Positions 17,710 to 23,797 of a stretch of DNA of 37,624 bases are shown here, in pieces. Made by a program: the position numbers and the translations under genes. The stretch lies in the NCBI GenBank assembly GCA_020722985.1, contig DYJU01000016.1:1-37624 (forward strand). The letters run 5' to 3'. The notes below the pieces were generated by a model that did no database searches, had not been told where the DNA came from, and worked only from the letters and a program-made list of their open reading frames with translations. Origin of the DNA: Candidatus Methylomirabilis sp. (GTDB lineage Bacteria > Oederibacteriota > PGYV01 > DYJU01). Each line of letters opens with the position of its first letter. The stretch's first letter is position 1.

Positions 17710-17834
17710 CTAAGAAAAACACTGGGGGAAACCCAATCTAACTTTTATCTCCGGATGCTTTCTCGTATTGTCTTCTTTCGTTTTTCAACTGTAAAATTGC
17801 TTCGTCTGGCTCGTCCGCCCTTATTTCCCTTTTT

Positions 17835-17983
17835 CCCTCTCCCCCTGGGGGAGAGGGCAAGGGTGAGAGGGTATTGCTCTCGTTAAGTATTTTTCCCAGC
17901 ATCTGCTCTTTATTATTTCCTGCTGTCCAGCAACCGTAACAAAAAACCCCCTCATCCTATCCTTCTCCCCTCTGGGGAGAAGG
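17835..17983. repeat. BIME/REP-pair-like element, copy 1
   Basis: Begins with perfect hairpin CCCTCTCCCCC-T-GGGGGAGAGGG (17835-17857) and ends with CCTTCTCCCC-TCT-GGGGAGAAGG (17961-17983). The two ends are inverted copies of one another; the interior is shared with 24107-24251. Confidence 0.8.
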
Positions 17984-18101
17984 AATTTCTTTTTGTAATA
18001 TTTTAACCACTGGTAAAGCAAAATTGCTCCATAAATAAATTTTTTTATTTTGTCATTTTAAAGTCAGGCGAATGATTAACTCTATTTTCTATTATTCACT
18101 T

Positions 18102-18243
18102 AACAAAGCAATCTTGCTTTTATTACCGATCGCCTTTTTATCTTGTCTTCTTTCGTTTTTTAACTACGAGATTACTTCGTCAGATTCATATTACTCTTAT
18201 TTTTTCCTCTTAACTTTCCTTTCGGTTTTCCCGAGAATGACAA
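18102..18243 (+). repeat. Dispersed intergenic repeat (GATTGCTTCG family), copy
   Basis: AACAAAGCAATCTTGCTTTTATTACC...TCTTGTCTTCTTTCGTTTTTTAACTACGAGATTACTTCGTCAG...TTTCGGTTTTCCCGAGAATGACA; strongly similar to 5834-5973, 6162-6300, 24273-24380 and the reverse complement of 35970-36112. Confidence 0.75.
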
Positions 18244-18416: not shown

Positions 18417-19184
18417 TCAAAATTCCTCTCTTTTTTGTATTATTAATCTTTCTTCTTCTCCTTTTTCTGTCTTTTTTATCTGATTTAAAATATCATTAAA
18501 GGAAACCTGCTTTATTTTTTCTATTGTTCTATCGCCTATTGGTCTTAAAGCTAAACTAATTTTCCCTTTTTGCCGCGCAAAAGTAATTATTTCTGCTTCC
18601 TCTGGATTTACAGCAAAGGTCACAGTAGAATAAATACTTTCTTTACCAGACATTTTAAAATTATTTCCGACAGCTATTACTTTAACTACCTGCAAAATGG
18701 TTGCCGTGCATAATTTTTTTTCATGAACATCTTCATAAGTTAATATCAAATCAACAAAATCACCTGGCCTTATCATATAACTTACACCTGTTACATCATC
18801 AACACCTATACTTACAGCCCGCAAGCCCAATGGAATTGCAGTATTTAATTCAGAACTCCTTTCTGTTATTTTATTAATAAGTATCGGTTCTCCTTTTATA
18901 AAAGGACCTATGGCAACTTTTTTTAATACTTTTTTAGGTTCTTTAAGATGTGCTTCGGTTACCCATTTTTTAGGCATATTAGCAAAATCTATCATCTCTT
19001 CTGTAATTTCTGACCAGGCAGGTATATATTTAGCAGCAACTATCACTTTTACTGGTTCAATTTTTTGCATAATAAATTTTTCTTTTTCATTAATAAAAAG
19101 ATAGGTAAGCAGTGCAGCAAAAATTCCTGAAATTAAAGAAAGCAAAAGTAACTTTGTTTCGGTTTTCATTTCTTTTAAGTTCAT
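18417..19184 (-). CDS. cpaB: CpaB/RcpC-like Flp pilus assembly protein (SAF domain)
   Basis: 255-aa ORF; N-terminal TM, then VKVIVAAKYIPAWSEITEEMIDFANMP, GPFIKGEPILINKIT, LRAVSIGVDDVTGVSYMIRPGDFVDLILTYED. Confidence 0.9.
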   Translation of the reverse strand: MNLKEMKTETKLLLLSLISGIFAALLTYLFINEKEKFIMQKIEPVKVIVAAKYIPAWSEITEEMIDFANMPKKWVTEAHLKEPKKVLKKVAIGPFIKGEPILINKITERSSELNTAIPLGLRAVSIGVDDVTGVSYMIRPGDFVDLILTYEDVHEKKLCTATILQVVKVIAVGNNFKMSGKESIYSTVTFAVNPEEAEIITFARQKGKISLALRPIGDRTIEKIKQVSFNDILNQIKKTEKGEEERLIIQKREEF

Positions 19185-19206: not shown

Positions 19207-19968
19207 TTATCCTATTATACTAAAATAAAGTTTATCTTTAATTATTGAAAAAAACACAAAGTATTCATCATTGTCTTTTTTTATAAATAAAAATTTATAA
19301 TCGCTTTTATTGTCATTATTTAATTTTGTTATCTGCCATTTTTCATTTTTAAGATTTTTCAACCACTTTTCTGAAGCAAAATCAAATTCCCGCGTATCAA
19401 AAACGCCGTGATAAAAAAAATTATATTTACTTTTTAATCCCGGAAAGTTGACATATAAAATTTCCGTTAACTCATCAGGCAATTTTAATTTTTTAATCTT
19501 CTTTATATTTATCTTTTCATCTATATTTGCTGGAATTTTCATAATAACAACATTTGTTCTATCAGAATTCGTTGAAGCAGCAACCAGATTACCAGTTTTA
19601 TTTTTATCAATATAGAATAAATAATCAAAATCAGGATTAAAAAATTCTTCTCTGTTATTTAATAATAAAAATGCTAACATTTTTATATTTTTATTATCAA
19701 TTATTTTTAATTTTTTTTCTTTAGCATAATTTTGATAATAACCAATAACATCTCCCTGATGAGAATCAGTTAAAAAATTTTTCATATTTACTTTTTTACC
19801 ATTTACTAAAAATTCACTAAAATTTAAATTCCCTGAAATTTTAAATCCATCAAAGTTATTTATATTAACCATATCATCATAAATAAACGCAAACATGCAG
19901 GAGGGAAAAATAGAAATAAAAATTAAAAATATATAAATTTTATTAAATTTAATTGTTTTTTTCATCAT
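19207..19968 (-). CDS. Hypothetical exported protein in the Tad-like cluster
   Basis: 253-aa ORF with N-terminal hydrophobic signal (KIYIFLIFISIFPSCMFAFI); sits between a TadE-like gene and cpaB. Confidence 0.75.
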   Translation of the reverse strand: MMKKTIKFNKIYIFLIFISIFPSCMFAFIYDDMVNINNFDGFKISGNLNFSEFLVNGKKVNMKNFLTDSHQGDVIGYYQNYAKEKKLKIIDNKNIKMLAFLLLNNREEFFNPDFDYLFYIDKNKTGNLVAASTNSDRTNVVIMKIPANIDEKINIKKIKKLKLPDELTEILYVNFPGLKSKYNFFYHGVFDTREFDFASEKWLKNLKNEKWQITKLNNDNKSDYKFLFIKKDNDEYFVFFSIIKDKLYFSIIG

Positions 19969-20455
19969 CTTTCCTCACATCAAAAATTTGAACTAATTTT
20001 GTTATCATATTATCAAGTGTTAAATTAAAACTTCCACCATGTGCTGTATGAAGGTCGGTGGTTAATTTAATTTGTTTTTTACCTGTAATTAAAGAAAATA
20101 AAGGCAGGAGTTTTTCCTTATAAGATATAATAACCCTGATGCTTATAAATTTATTAAAAACATTTATCAGGAAATTTCCTTTTAAATTATCTCCTAAAAA
20201 ACTTTTATATTTAATATCTAAATTTTCATATTTTAAGCCTAAAATTTTAGAATAATTTTCAACAAATTCGTTAACATTTTCTTCTTCATCTATATCAGAA
20301 GTTATATACATCATTATTTCTCTTTCTAAAATTGCAATTTTTATTTTTGTTATAAAAATTTCAGCGAACTGCCATATTCCAATAAAAAAGACCAGAAGAA
20401 TTGGAATTAAAATCACAAACTCTGCTAATGCCTGTGCTTTATTTTTTCTTTTCAT
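19949..20455 (-). CDS. TadE-like pseudopilin/pilus assembly protein
   Basis: The ORF track starts at 20554, but the likely start is MKRKNKAQALAEFVILIPILLVFFIGIWQFAEIF at 20455, 1 nt after the upstream stop; class III prepilin-like motif KAQALAEFVI. Confidence 0.82.
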   Translation of the reverse strand: MKRKNKAQALAEFVILIPILLVFFIGIWQFAEIFITKIKIAILEREIMMYITSDIDEEENVNEFVENYSKILGLKYENLDIKYKSFLGDNLKGNFLINVFNKFISIRVIISYKEKLLPLFSLITGKKQIKLTTDLHTAHGGSFNLTLDNMITKLVQIFDVRKDDEKNN

Positions 20456-20456
20456 T

Positions 20457-21539
20457 TTAATGTAATAAAAATTTACTGAATACTTTTTCGTCAAACATCC
20501 CTGTATCAACAGGCAACCCTGCCCTTTCAATTCGCGGGGAATATTTTGCACCATTCAAATCCTTAACATCCAAAGAACCACCATCTATTACAACTTTTGA
20601 CACTGTCAGAAAAAAATTATTTGGTTTTATTTCTTTTTTCTTTTCATCTTTAAAAAGATTCTTTGCAACTAAAAACTCATTTCCCCACTTTAAACTTGCG
20701 ACCCAGATACAATGTTCTCCTTTTTCTTCAATAAAAGTTTTCAAATTGCCTTTCTCAGTTGAAAACCCATACTTATTCACAACTTCGCGTGTTACAAAAT
20801 ATCTTCTATTTCCATTTTCTGTCATAACAGCCATTATCATCTGCCATCTCCTTGCCTTTGAATTATAGAAAACATTAGAAGAATCAACATATATTTTTTT
20901 GTCTTTATTTTTGTAATAGTATTTAACTTCTGTTTCTAAAATTTCTGTTGCTGTCTGCCTCCTTAAATTTAGATTCGGGATTATGGAATAATCATTTTCT
21001 GATGAAGAACTTGAAAAATTTTTAATATTATTTAAAAAATCATTATTAAAATCTATTTTTTCTAAAATATCAGGCAGAACAGAAGAAAGCCCGGGAAAGG
21101 AAAAAGAATTATTAGATTCTGACGAGTCACTTTCGCCCACTTCTTTATTAAATAAAGGCACACTTAATACTTTATTTTCATATCCATTTAATAAAACCAT
21201 TCCGAATATAAAATAAGGCGAAATACCCATGATAAAATCCTGTATCCCCTGGACTGCATCAATTGTTGTTTTACACGCACCAAGAGTTACTGCTGTAACA
21301 GCATACGCACCTGCAAGTCCTTTATTACTTAATGAAGCTATATTTAATATCCTTGAATACCATAAACCACCTTCTAAGGCCGCGGAATCGCAAATATTCT
21401 GCATGTGAATTTTTTTGTAAATCAGATTACCTGTTTCAATAACTAAAAAAGTAATCATAAAAATTATAATAAAAACAAATATAGCCATAATAAGTATCTG
21501 TCCTTTATTTTTGCCAGTTATTTTTTTACTCTTCTTCAT
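20457..21539 (-). CDS. TadG-like (Tad domain) pilus-associated membrane protein
   Basis: 360-aa ORF; KNKGQILIMAIFVFIIIFMITFLVIETGNLIYKKIHMQNICDSAALEGG resembles the Putative Flp pilus-assembly TadE/G-like N-terminal region. Confidence 0.78.
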   Translation of the reverse strand: MKKSKKITGKNKGQILIMAIFVFIIIFMITFLVIETGNLIYKKIHMQNICDSAALEGGLWYSRILNIASLSNKGLAGAYAVTAVTLGACKTTIDAVQGIQDFIMGISPYFIFGMVLLNGYENKVLSVPLFNKEVGESDSSESNNSFSFPGLSSVLPDILEKIDFNNDFLNNIKNFSSSSSENDYSIIPNLNLRRQTATEILETEVKYYYKNKDKKIYVDSSNVFYNSKARRWQMIMAVMTENGNRRYFVTREVVNKYGFSTEKGNLKTFIEEKGEHCIWVASLKWGNEFLVAKNLFKDEKKKEIKPNNFFLTVSKVVIDGGSLDVKDLNGAKYSPRIERAGLPVDTGMFDEKVFSKFLLH

Positions 21540-22104
21540 TAAAAGGGCACCTCATTATCGCATTAGATTTTATAAGATAATAAGGATTATTTAATTTAAC
21601 CAAAATAAATTTTTTAAAATAATCAACATCTTCTTCCTTATTAAAAAATCCAAAAATTTTATTCACAAAAGGAACTTTAAGTGGCATATAATATTTTACT
21701 TTAACATTAATAAATTTTTCTTTTGAACCTTCTACATCAACCTGTTCTATTTCAACTTCGCTTTTTTCTATTTTTTCTAAAATAAAATTAAATAAAATAT
21801 TTTTTCCTGTTTCCAGAGAAAATGTTTCTTTTGAATTGATAATTGATAGAATAAGTTTCATTATATTATCTGCCTGTTTTGCATTTTCTATTTTTTCATC
21901 GCTATAATAATATGAAACAGCAACCCTGCCCACAATATAAGCAGTATATTTTACAAGAAAAGTATTTATTATAATAAAAGAAAATTGTATAAGTCCTAAG
22001 GAAAACAAAAGAAAAATTGGTAAAATTAAAGAAAATTCCACCATGCTCTGTGCTTTTGTTTTCCTTATTTTAAATCCATAAATTTTAAAATTTTTATTCA
22101 TCAT
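21526..22104 (-). CDS. TadE-like pilus assembly protein
   Basis: 192-aa ORF; KTKAQSMVEFSLILPIFLLFSLGLIQFSFIIINTFLVKYTAYIVGRVA. Confidence 0.85.
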   Translation of the reverse strand: MMNKNFKIYGFKIRKTKAQSMVEFSLILPIFLLFSLGLIQFSFIIINTFLVKYTAYIVGRVAVSYYYSDEKIENAKQADNIMKLILSIINSKETFSLETGKNILFNFILEKIEKSEVEIEQVDVEGSKEKFINVKVKYYMPLKVPFVNKIFGFFNKEEDVDYFKKFILVKLNNPYYLIKSNAIMRCPFNEEE

Positions 22105-22303
22105 TTAAGTCATCTTTTTTATCTATACTGTCCTGGACTTCTGAGTTTATGGTATCAGCGGCATCTTTAAATGACTTCTTTACATTTCCGCCAAATAATT
22201 TTAATCCGCCAATAACCAAAATAGCAATAAGAGCAATGATAAGTATATACTCAACAAGCCCTTGCGCCCTTCTACCTCTTAAAACTTTTTTCATTTTAAG
22301 CAC
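22094..22303 (-). CDS. Flp-family type IVb pilin
   Basis: 69-aa ORF; KKVLRGRRAQGLVEYILIIALIAILVIGGLKLFGGNVKKSFKDAADTINSE, the canonical Flp/Fap pilin architecture; GGAGGTG upstream. Confidence 0.92.
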   Translation of the reverse strand: MLKMKKVLRGRRAQGLVEYILIIALIAILVIGGLKLFGGNVKKSFKDAADTINSEVQDSIDKKDDLNDE

Positions 22304-22311
22304 CTCCTTTT

Positions 22312-22476
22312 TTATGGTATTGGTAAAGAAATTATAAATAAGAAATTTTTTAAAAAATTAGCAAATAAAAGTGCGAAAAATTTACTCATCAATAAACTTA
22401 AAATAAATATAAAAAAAACTATTAATATATATTCAACAATCGCCTGTGCCTTTTTACCTCTTATCAATTTTTTCAC
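22312..22476 (-). CDS. Second Flp-pilin-like small protein (54 aa), not in the supplied ORF track
   Basis: GTG start at 22476, TAA stop at 22312-22314. My translation: MKKLIRGKKAQAIVEYILIVFFIFILSLLMSKFFALLFANFLKNFLFIISLPIP. Matches the N-terminus of the adjacent Flp pilin (KVLRGRRAQGLVEYILII); start overlaps the 3' end of the TPR gene. Confidence 0.8.
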   Translation of the reverse strand: MKKLIRGKKAQAIVEYILIVFFIFILSLLMSKFFALLFANFLKNFLFIISLPIP

Positions 22477-23797
22477 CAACTTTTATTGTATTTAATTCTT
22501 CTATTTTTTTTATGCCTGTTTTTGCTTCTGTATTTTCAGCATCAAGCCGTAAAATATATTCGTATTTACTTTTCGCTTTTTCAAGTAATCCCTGATTTAT
22601 TAATGTTTCAGCATCAGCAATTAACTTTTTTATTTTTTCCTGTTTATGTATTTTTGCCTCTTCTAATTTTGCTTTTGCAATTTCTATATTTTTCTTTGCT
22701 TGCTCATCATCCGGGTTGATTTTTAAGACTTCATCCCAGTATTTGCATGCACTTTCATAATCGCCTTTTTCAAAACAGGCAACTCCTTTGTTATAAAGTT
22801 GATTGACTTTCTTTTGAGTTTTTTCCTTTTCATTGAATATCGCAAGTTTAATTTTTAACTCTTTTTCCATATCTTTTGCGGAAATATTCTTCTCATTAAA
22901 TTCTAATGCTTCTTTTATTTTTTCATAAGATTCTCTCATTTTATTTTCTTCTTTTAATGCTTTAGCTTTTTCAAAAAGTTCATTGCTTATCCTGTTAAAT
23001 TCATTTACATAAAATTCGGCATGTTTATTGTTCTTATTATTGATATAAACCTTTTCATATAAACTTCTCGCTTTTTTTATCTCGCCGTCTGTCCTGGCTT
23101 TATCTGCCTGTTCTATTAACCTATCCTCATCTTCTTTATCCTTTATACTTAACAATTTTTCTTGAGACAAATTTAAAAATTTTTTAACCTGATTGTTAGC
23201 GGCGTCAAGATCTTTTGCTTTTTCAAATTTTTCAATTGCCTCTTTATATAAACCTTTTCTATAAAAAGCCATTCCTTTTTCATATAATTCCTTTACTAAA
23301 CTCTGAAATGGTTTTGTATCATCAAATAAAAACTCCTCATTACTGATTTCTTTTATCATCTGGCTTGCAGTTTTATTTTCTTTATCAAGTTTTAAAATAT
23401 CCTGAAGTTCTGCTAAAGCATTTAATAATTTACTTTCTTTATAATATTTATTTGCCTTTTCAAACCTATTCATAATTAAATTGGTTTCTGAATTTTCCAC
23501 GGAATTATTTGTTATTTGCTCTCCCTTTACTTCTGCTATTATTTGATTTAAAATTTCCGTATTTTCTTTTTTTAATTGAATAATTACCCGGATTTCCTCT
23601 AAAAAACTTTTATGATAATTTTTTTCAAAATATTGTTGGGCTAATTTTATATGTTTTTTAATAATAAAATTATTTTCTACCGAATAGAGTTTTTCCAATT
23701 CTGCTTTAATATCAAGGGATAAAATATTCTCATATAATACAATTAATACCAAAATCAATATAAAAAAACTTTTATAAATTTTAAATATTATTCTCAT
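22454..23797 (-). CDS. Exported/membrane-anchored TPR protein
   Basis: 447-aa ORF; N-terminal signal/TM (FKIYKSFFILILVLIVLYENILS), then TPR-like units (EKGMAFYRKGLYKEAIEKFEKAKDLDAANNQVKK; NKGVACFEKGDYESACKYWDEVLKINPDDEQAKKN). Confidence 0.85.
   Translation of the reverse strand: MRIIFKIYKSFFILILVLIVLYENILSLDIKAELEKLYSVENNFIIKKHIKLAQQYFEKNYHKSFLEEIRVIIQLKKENTEILNQIIAEVKGEQITNNSVENSETNLIMNRFEKANKYYKESKLLNALAELQDILKLDKENKTASQMIKEISNEEFLFDDTKPFQSLVKELYEKGMAFYRKGLYKEAIEKFEKAKDLDAANNQVKKFLNLSQEKLLSIKDKEDEDRLIEQADKARTDGEIKKARSLYEKVYINNKNNKHAEFYVNEFNRISNELFEKAKALKEENKMRESYEKIKEALEFNEKNISAKDMEKELKIKLAIFNEKEKTQKKVNQLYNKGVACFEKGDYESACKYWDEVLKINPDDEQAKKNIEIAKAKLEEAKIHKQEKIKKLIADAETLINQGLLEKAKSKYEYILRLDAENTEAKTGIKKIEELNTIKVGEKIDKR

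Follow-up and report, generated by a model that had tools for sequence, protein, structure and literature searches.

The 54-residue reading frame at positions 22312..22476, on the minus strand of the 37,624-nucleotide stretch of Candidatus Methylomirabilis sp. DNA analysed here (the window), is a real gene that has been kept near a normal Flp pilin gene (flp) through most families of the phylum Candidatus Goldiibacteriota. Its product, which we term the micropilin, belongs to a defined subfamily of Flp-type minor pilins and is not a new kind of system. With regard to its function, the reading we favour is that the micropilin is a minor Tad/Flp pilin serving as adapter or primer between the TadE/TadF/TadG tip complex and the Flp shaft; this proposal, drawn by analogy with a known pilus, stands in our judgement about an even chance of being right.

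The frame runs from a GTG start (22476-22474) to a TAA stop (22314-22312) and encodes the prepilin MKKLIRGKKAQAIVEYILIVFFIFILSLLMSKFFALLFANFLKNFLFIISLPIP, exactly the frame and peptide that an earlier sequence-only reading of the window had put forward; the plus strand of the same interval is full of stops. We note that the GTG start is backed by relatives, in which the aligned codon is GTG (G001) or ATG (G002 and G003), and that a TTG further upstream, at 22479, is TGG in G001. The claimed overlap with the end of the TPR-repeat protein gene (22454..23797, minus strand, 447 aa, stop at 22454) is present and amounts to 23 nt, and in G001, G002 and G003 the micropilin likewise overlaps the end of the TPR gene. 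Since the window offers no good Shine-Dalgarno sequence for the micropilin, its translation may plausibly be coupled to that of the TPR gene. The start of flp is most probably ATG 22294, which lies behind the Shine-Dalgarno sequence GGAGGTG, and so the gap between the two pilin genes is 17 nt; the 9 nt given previously were counted from GTG 22303, which is itself part of that Shine-Dalgarno sequence.

The TPR overlap and the 17-nt gap might also suggest a regulatory leader frame, the translation of which would govern flp by coupling and the peptide of which would be unimportant, and a strong hairpin upstream of the micropilin in genomes of family f5 would suit such a role. This explanation is nevertheless largely refuted and we regard it as very improbable, since the micropilin is conserved at the amino-acid level with low dN/dS, and since it lies on another contig than flp, or kilobases from it, in G003, G016-G019 and G023; a leader peptide was rejected on the strength of these copies kept apart from flp. 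The f5 hairpin is nearly perfect, is 17 bp long, sits ~100-190 nt upstream of the micropilin behind AGAGGGG...ATG in three loci (L100, L012 and L013; z = -7.3, -6.7 and -4.4), has a T-run after it in two of these loci, and looks like an attenuator or terminator. Another upstream motif, ATAGAGGGG / ATATAGAGG, recurs in L101, L018, L020, L099 and L100, in several cases just past a TTGACA/TATCAT-like promoter; no enrichment of this motif was found in the window, and Rfam, applied to the window and to the loci of the order, recognised nothing except tRNAs in one locus.

Conservation was assessed at three levels: the family, with 2 genomes; the order and class, with 14; and the phylum, with 45. The homologue search suggested by the earlier reading, with attention to synteny before flp, found an intact ORF in the corresponding place in the congener, 62% identical to the window copy (E 3.6e-17). 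A micropilin profile, which scores the window gene at E 1.4e-20, hit 12 of the order's 14 genomes with E values between 1e-16 and 1e-25, and the micropilin is present in all 12 that have a Tad system. A search with the normal flp likewise found flp in 12 of the 14, and in 11 of these 12 an Flp-like ORF of 52-54 aa lies immediately upstream of it, every one of the 11 ending in P-x-P or P-x-x-P. Relatives were inspected for stops in the frame and for failure to conserve a KxxAQxxVEY motif between the TPR and flp genes, outcomes named beforehand as fatal to the proposal, and neither occurred.

Across the phylum, the order-micropilin profile matches 36 of the 45 genomes at E<=1e-4, a figure that includes matches to flp itself; when the matched loci were read, the micropilin was found in 32 genomes of 10 families, its frame intact across all ten. 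Its setting varies. It precedes flp in families f9 (G020, G021), f11 and f16, stands ~3 kb away from flp in three genomes of family f8, G016 (where it is behind a galT-like gene), G017 and G019, and is on a different contig from flp in G018 and G023; in both G023 and G020 it follows pdxJ. A normal flp accompanies it always. No micropilin was seen at the loci read in G014, G015, G025 and G026, which have Tad genes and an flp-type match. Beyond the phylum, a tblastn search of plasmids with two micropilins turned up nothing useful, and in a scan of genome contigs, which cannot show absence elsewhere, just two Goldiibacteriota records matched.

Selection and descent point the same way. The proposed dN/dS comparison (NG86) gave 0.09-0.37 for eight micropilin pairs, in some of which synonymous changes are near saturation, and 0.05-0.22 for four flp pairs. 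In a tree of 45 columns, with inner forks unresolved and labels set by position and C-terminus beforehand, a single branch parts the 32 micropilins from 31 flp pilins with 100/100 support and in all 200 bootstrap trees. Because one branch separates it from every flp, the micropilin is a paralogue of long standing, neither newly duplicated nor in decay, and the tree agrees with what may have been one duplication before the families of the phylum diverged. A degenerate flp duplicate or a chance frame might have been suspected of a product shorter than Flp and lacking any Pfam match; ten families conserve it, however, with frames all intact and a single ancient origin, and this possibility, refuted by the conservation and the dN/dS, retains practically no probability.

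The likeness to the adjacent pilin noted from the sequence holds up on comparison, by BLAST to the window's own flp (E 3.2e-5) and by hhalign of the micropilin profile against the flp profile (98.6% probability, E 9e-16), and this detectable homology places the micropilin in the Flp/Fap superfamily of type IVb/IVc pilins. The micropilins also carry the superfamily's (G/A/S)|xxxxE(Y/F) motif followed by a hydrophobic stretch. The window micropilin has no PF04964 match at E<=1 and thus falls short of the gathering cut-off, 5 of the 32 micropilins match PF04964 at E<=0.1 (best 2.5e-4), and the window's normal flp is itself under the cut-off (24.8 versus 32.2 bits). No pilin family of Pfam or NCBIfam matched the window micropilin, among solved structures its profile matches PilA weakly and nothing well, and no published description of it was found in the openly licensed literature. 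With the Flp/Fap major pilins (PF04964; Caulobacter PilA, 8U1K) it shares the QxxxEY start, the single helix, a mature length of ~45 aa and residence in a Tad locus, but it differs from PF04964 pilins in its hydrophobic second half, its Pro-x-Pro end and its separate clade. Membership of TadE was considered and rejected: the TadE/TadF pseudopilins (PF07811) have a similar class III-type N-terminus and share the operon, but in this order they are 161-215 aa long with a domain after the helix, whereas the micropilin has no such domain, gives few and weak Pfam matches to TadE, and groups with flp by profile.

The leader peptide, MKKLIRGKKA (22447..22476, minus strand), is predicted to be cut by prepilin peptidase at A|Q, within KKA|QAIVEY, leaving glutamate at +5 and a mature protein of 44 aa from the Q at 22446; processing after G-K or G-R, as first suggested, is rejected in favour of the A|QxxxEY motif. 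Both pilins of the window carry alanine, not glycine, at -1, and over the 32 micropilins the Q, E and Y of the motif are invariant, with G or A at -1. From the predicted cut, mature micropilins measure 43-45 aa (sd 0.5, n=31) against 42-70 aa (sd 7.3) for flp. After position 8 they have a mean of 2.5 charged residues, versus 7.9 in flp, and the mean Kyte-Doolittle value of the second half is 0.74 versus -0.54, family f9 and G010 being exceptions. The C-terminus is P-x(1,2)-P or LPF in 26 of 31 micropilins and K(T/I)R in the other 5, none of these ends occurring in flp; the LPF and K(T/I)R ends belong to two families. In the window the end is Pro-Ile-Pro (22315..22323, minus strand), and both prolines, P52 and P54, are invariant in 11 of 11. 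The hydrophobic end remarked on in the sequence-only reading is a conserved feature, but the idea that it marks truncation, the polar C-terminal part having been lost, fails, as 43-45 aa is the mature length of a full small Flp.

These features bear on whether the micropilin enters the pilus at all. It might instead be a small inner-membrane protein that stays outside the pilus, either holding Flp or TadE/F/G or presenting them to the Tad motor, or else sensing how much pilin is in the pool. A mostly hydrophobic sequence with few charges would fit, as would a single-sequence AlphaFold2 model of the mature protein, which predicts one helix over residues 2-40 with a short tail (mean pLDDT 94.6) and, as a monomer, is silent on partners. 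In type IV pilins, processing and the packing of the filament depend on the cleavage motif and the glutamate at +5. Both are invariant in the micropilins, and a membrane-retained helper accordingly appears quite unlikely to us. Of the roles first offered, then, that of an Flp paralogue acting probably as a minor or priming subunit fits all the evidence, and retention in the membrane has become the less likely part.

Alternatively, the micropilin might be a second shaft pilin, which co-polymerises with Flp or builds an alternative filament under other conditions. It shares its cleavage motif and mature length with shaft Flps (PilA, 45 aa), it stands in tandem with flp, and tandem flp-1/flp-2 pairs are known in other Tad loci (PMC5430801 and the available part of PMC10934763). 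Yet it is never found without a normal flp; its first half is far freer than that of flp, where the core QGxxEYILIIALxA is nearly invariant; and its few surface charges, fixed length and Pro-x-Pro end also count against a shaft role, so that we consider this an unlikely reading.

The genomic surroundings speak for a role in the Tad machine. Following the micropilin in one run on the minus strand are flp (22094..22294; 66 aa from ATG 22294; Flp_Fap E 1.9e-5), the presumed major subunit; a TadE-like minor pilin (21526..22104; PF07811 E 1.6e-6); a TadG-like (Tad/TadE-G) protein (20457..21539; PF13400 E 1.4e-7); a second TadE-like minor pilin in the TadF position (19949..20554; PF07811 E 4.9e-4, below the cut-off); a conserved protein without family match (19207..19968); and CpaB/RcpC, for Tad pilus assembly (18417..19184; TIGR03177 E 1.2e-50). 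We infer a Tad role because the micropilin adjoins flp, tadE, tadG and cpaB, and because in G005 and G006, the order's two genomes without it, TadG and CpaB were also not found. Elsewhere in the window's genome (rated 84% complete), a TadB/TadC-like pair lies on contig C54 (L125), apart from the operon and after a pheS-like gene, and the sole prepilin peptidase match is on contig C76 (L126), near a PilC/GspF-like gene; a Tad-specific prepilin peptidase was not found in this genome.

Two further observations concern the operon itself. The gene for the protein without family match separates the second TadE-like gene from cpaB in the six order genomes compared (the window copy; L008 12164-12901; L099 7308-8129; L100 852-1577; L101 7045-7776; L102 3297-4031); the protein is 241-273 aa long, with a signal-like N-terminus, an invariant glycine at or near the C-terminus, and 15-58% identity to the window copy. 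Downstream of cpaB, the gap at 17734-18181 holds two direct copies of 73 nt, 75% identical, and the stretch that separates the copies contains a short G+C-rich palindrome.

The Kil (Tad) pilus of Myxococcus has two short Flp minor pilins, KilK and KilO (59 aa), without which TadEFG-like tips are not coupled to the KilP shaft and polymerisation is not primed; each is needed with particular TadEFG-like tips, their joint removal abolishes pilus polymerisation, and in models they sit where the tip meets the shaft, the C-terminal helix lying between KilM, KilN and KilP (PMC12075869). By description and gene setting, KilK and KilO resemble the micropilin: they are short, Flp-like helical prepilins that have a leader and a cleavage motif, are distinct from the major pilin and have their genes alongside TadEFG-type ones, and the micropilin is likewise short, Flp-like, distinct from the major pilin and close to TadEFG genes. 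They differ in that the sections available of PMC12075869 report neither a Pro-x-Pro end nor a fixed length for KilK/KilO, and in that KilP, as described there, is encoded at another locus, unlike the flp of the window. Bdellovibrio offers a second comparison in Flp2 (bd0118), a "trimmed" Flp next to flp1 that is needed for predation, the two not being interchangeable (PMC5430801). Like the micropilin, Flp2 is a second short Flp beside the first in a Tad locus, but it lacks the cleavage glycine and starts MxxEY, whereas no such trimming is seen in the 32 micropilins, all of which retain the leader and (G/A)|Q.

Returning to the adapter proposal, the micropilin would enter the inner membrane as a prepilin, lose its leader there when the cell's prepilin peptidase cleaves behind A10, and be used in few copies at the end of the pilus. 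There its N-terminal helix would pack as an Flp subunit does, with the hydrophobic second half and the fixed Pro-x-Pro end buried against the TadE/TadF/TadG tip complex, so that the micropilin would couple tip to shaft and prime Flp polymerisation. Burial of this kind would account for the lack of charge in the second half and for the strictness of both length and C-terminal end. The tip is favoured over the shaft by G003, in which TPR gene, micropilin (ending PFP) and tadE stay together in that order, and flp, which has left the operon, stands by itself on another contig (loci L037 and L098). It is favoured too by the presence of TadG in every micropilin-positive genome (recognised by Pfam or, for the f16 loci read, by its place in the operon); this co-occurrence is not clean proof of a tip role, since G025 and G026 have flp, TadG and CpaB without a detected micropilin, from which it also follows that an adapter of the micropilin type is not always needed. 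Two further findings count against an adapter: linkage to tadE is not universal, the micropilin lying away from both flp and tadE in G016-G019 and G023, and in family f9 its second half is no more hydrophobic than that of flp.

This leads us to speculate, tentatively and with somewhat less than even confidence, that the micropilins form a distinct and ancient class of Tad minor pilin, a helix of a fixed 43-45 residues with a Pro-x-Pro end, dedicated to joining tip to shaft and priming polymerisation. Within the literature found, adapter Flps have been reported only from 2025 and in one organism. The micropilin bears on how Tad pili are primed and attached to their tips, and it makes the adapter idea testable. 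Short Flps in other Tad loci are easily overlooked or filed as redundant pilins, and a second Flp found phylum-wide, with constrained length and end, provides a sequence signature with which such loci can be searched. If the proposal is true, an adapter subunit would be a core part of the Tad machine throughout a phylum, rather than something peculiar to predatory Myxococcus.
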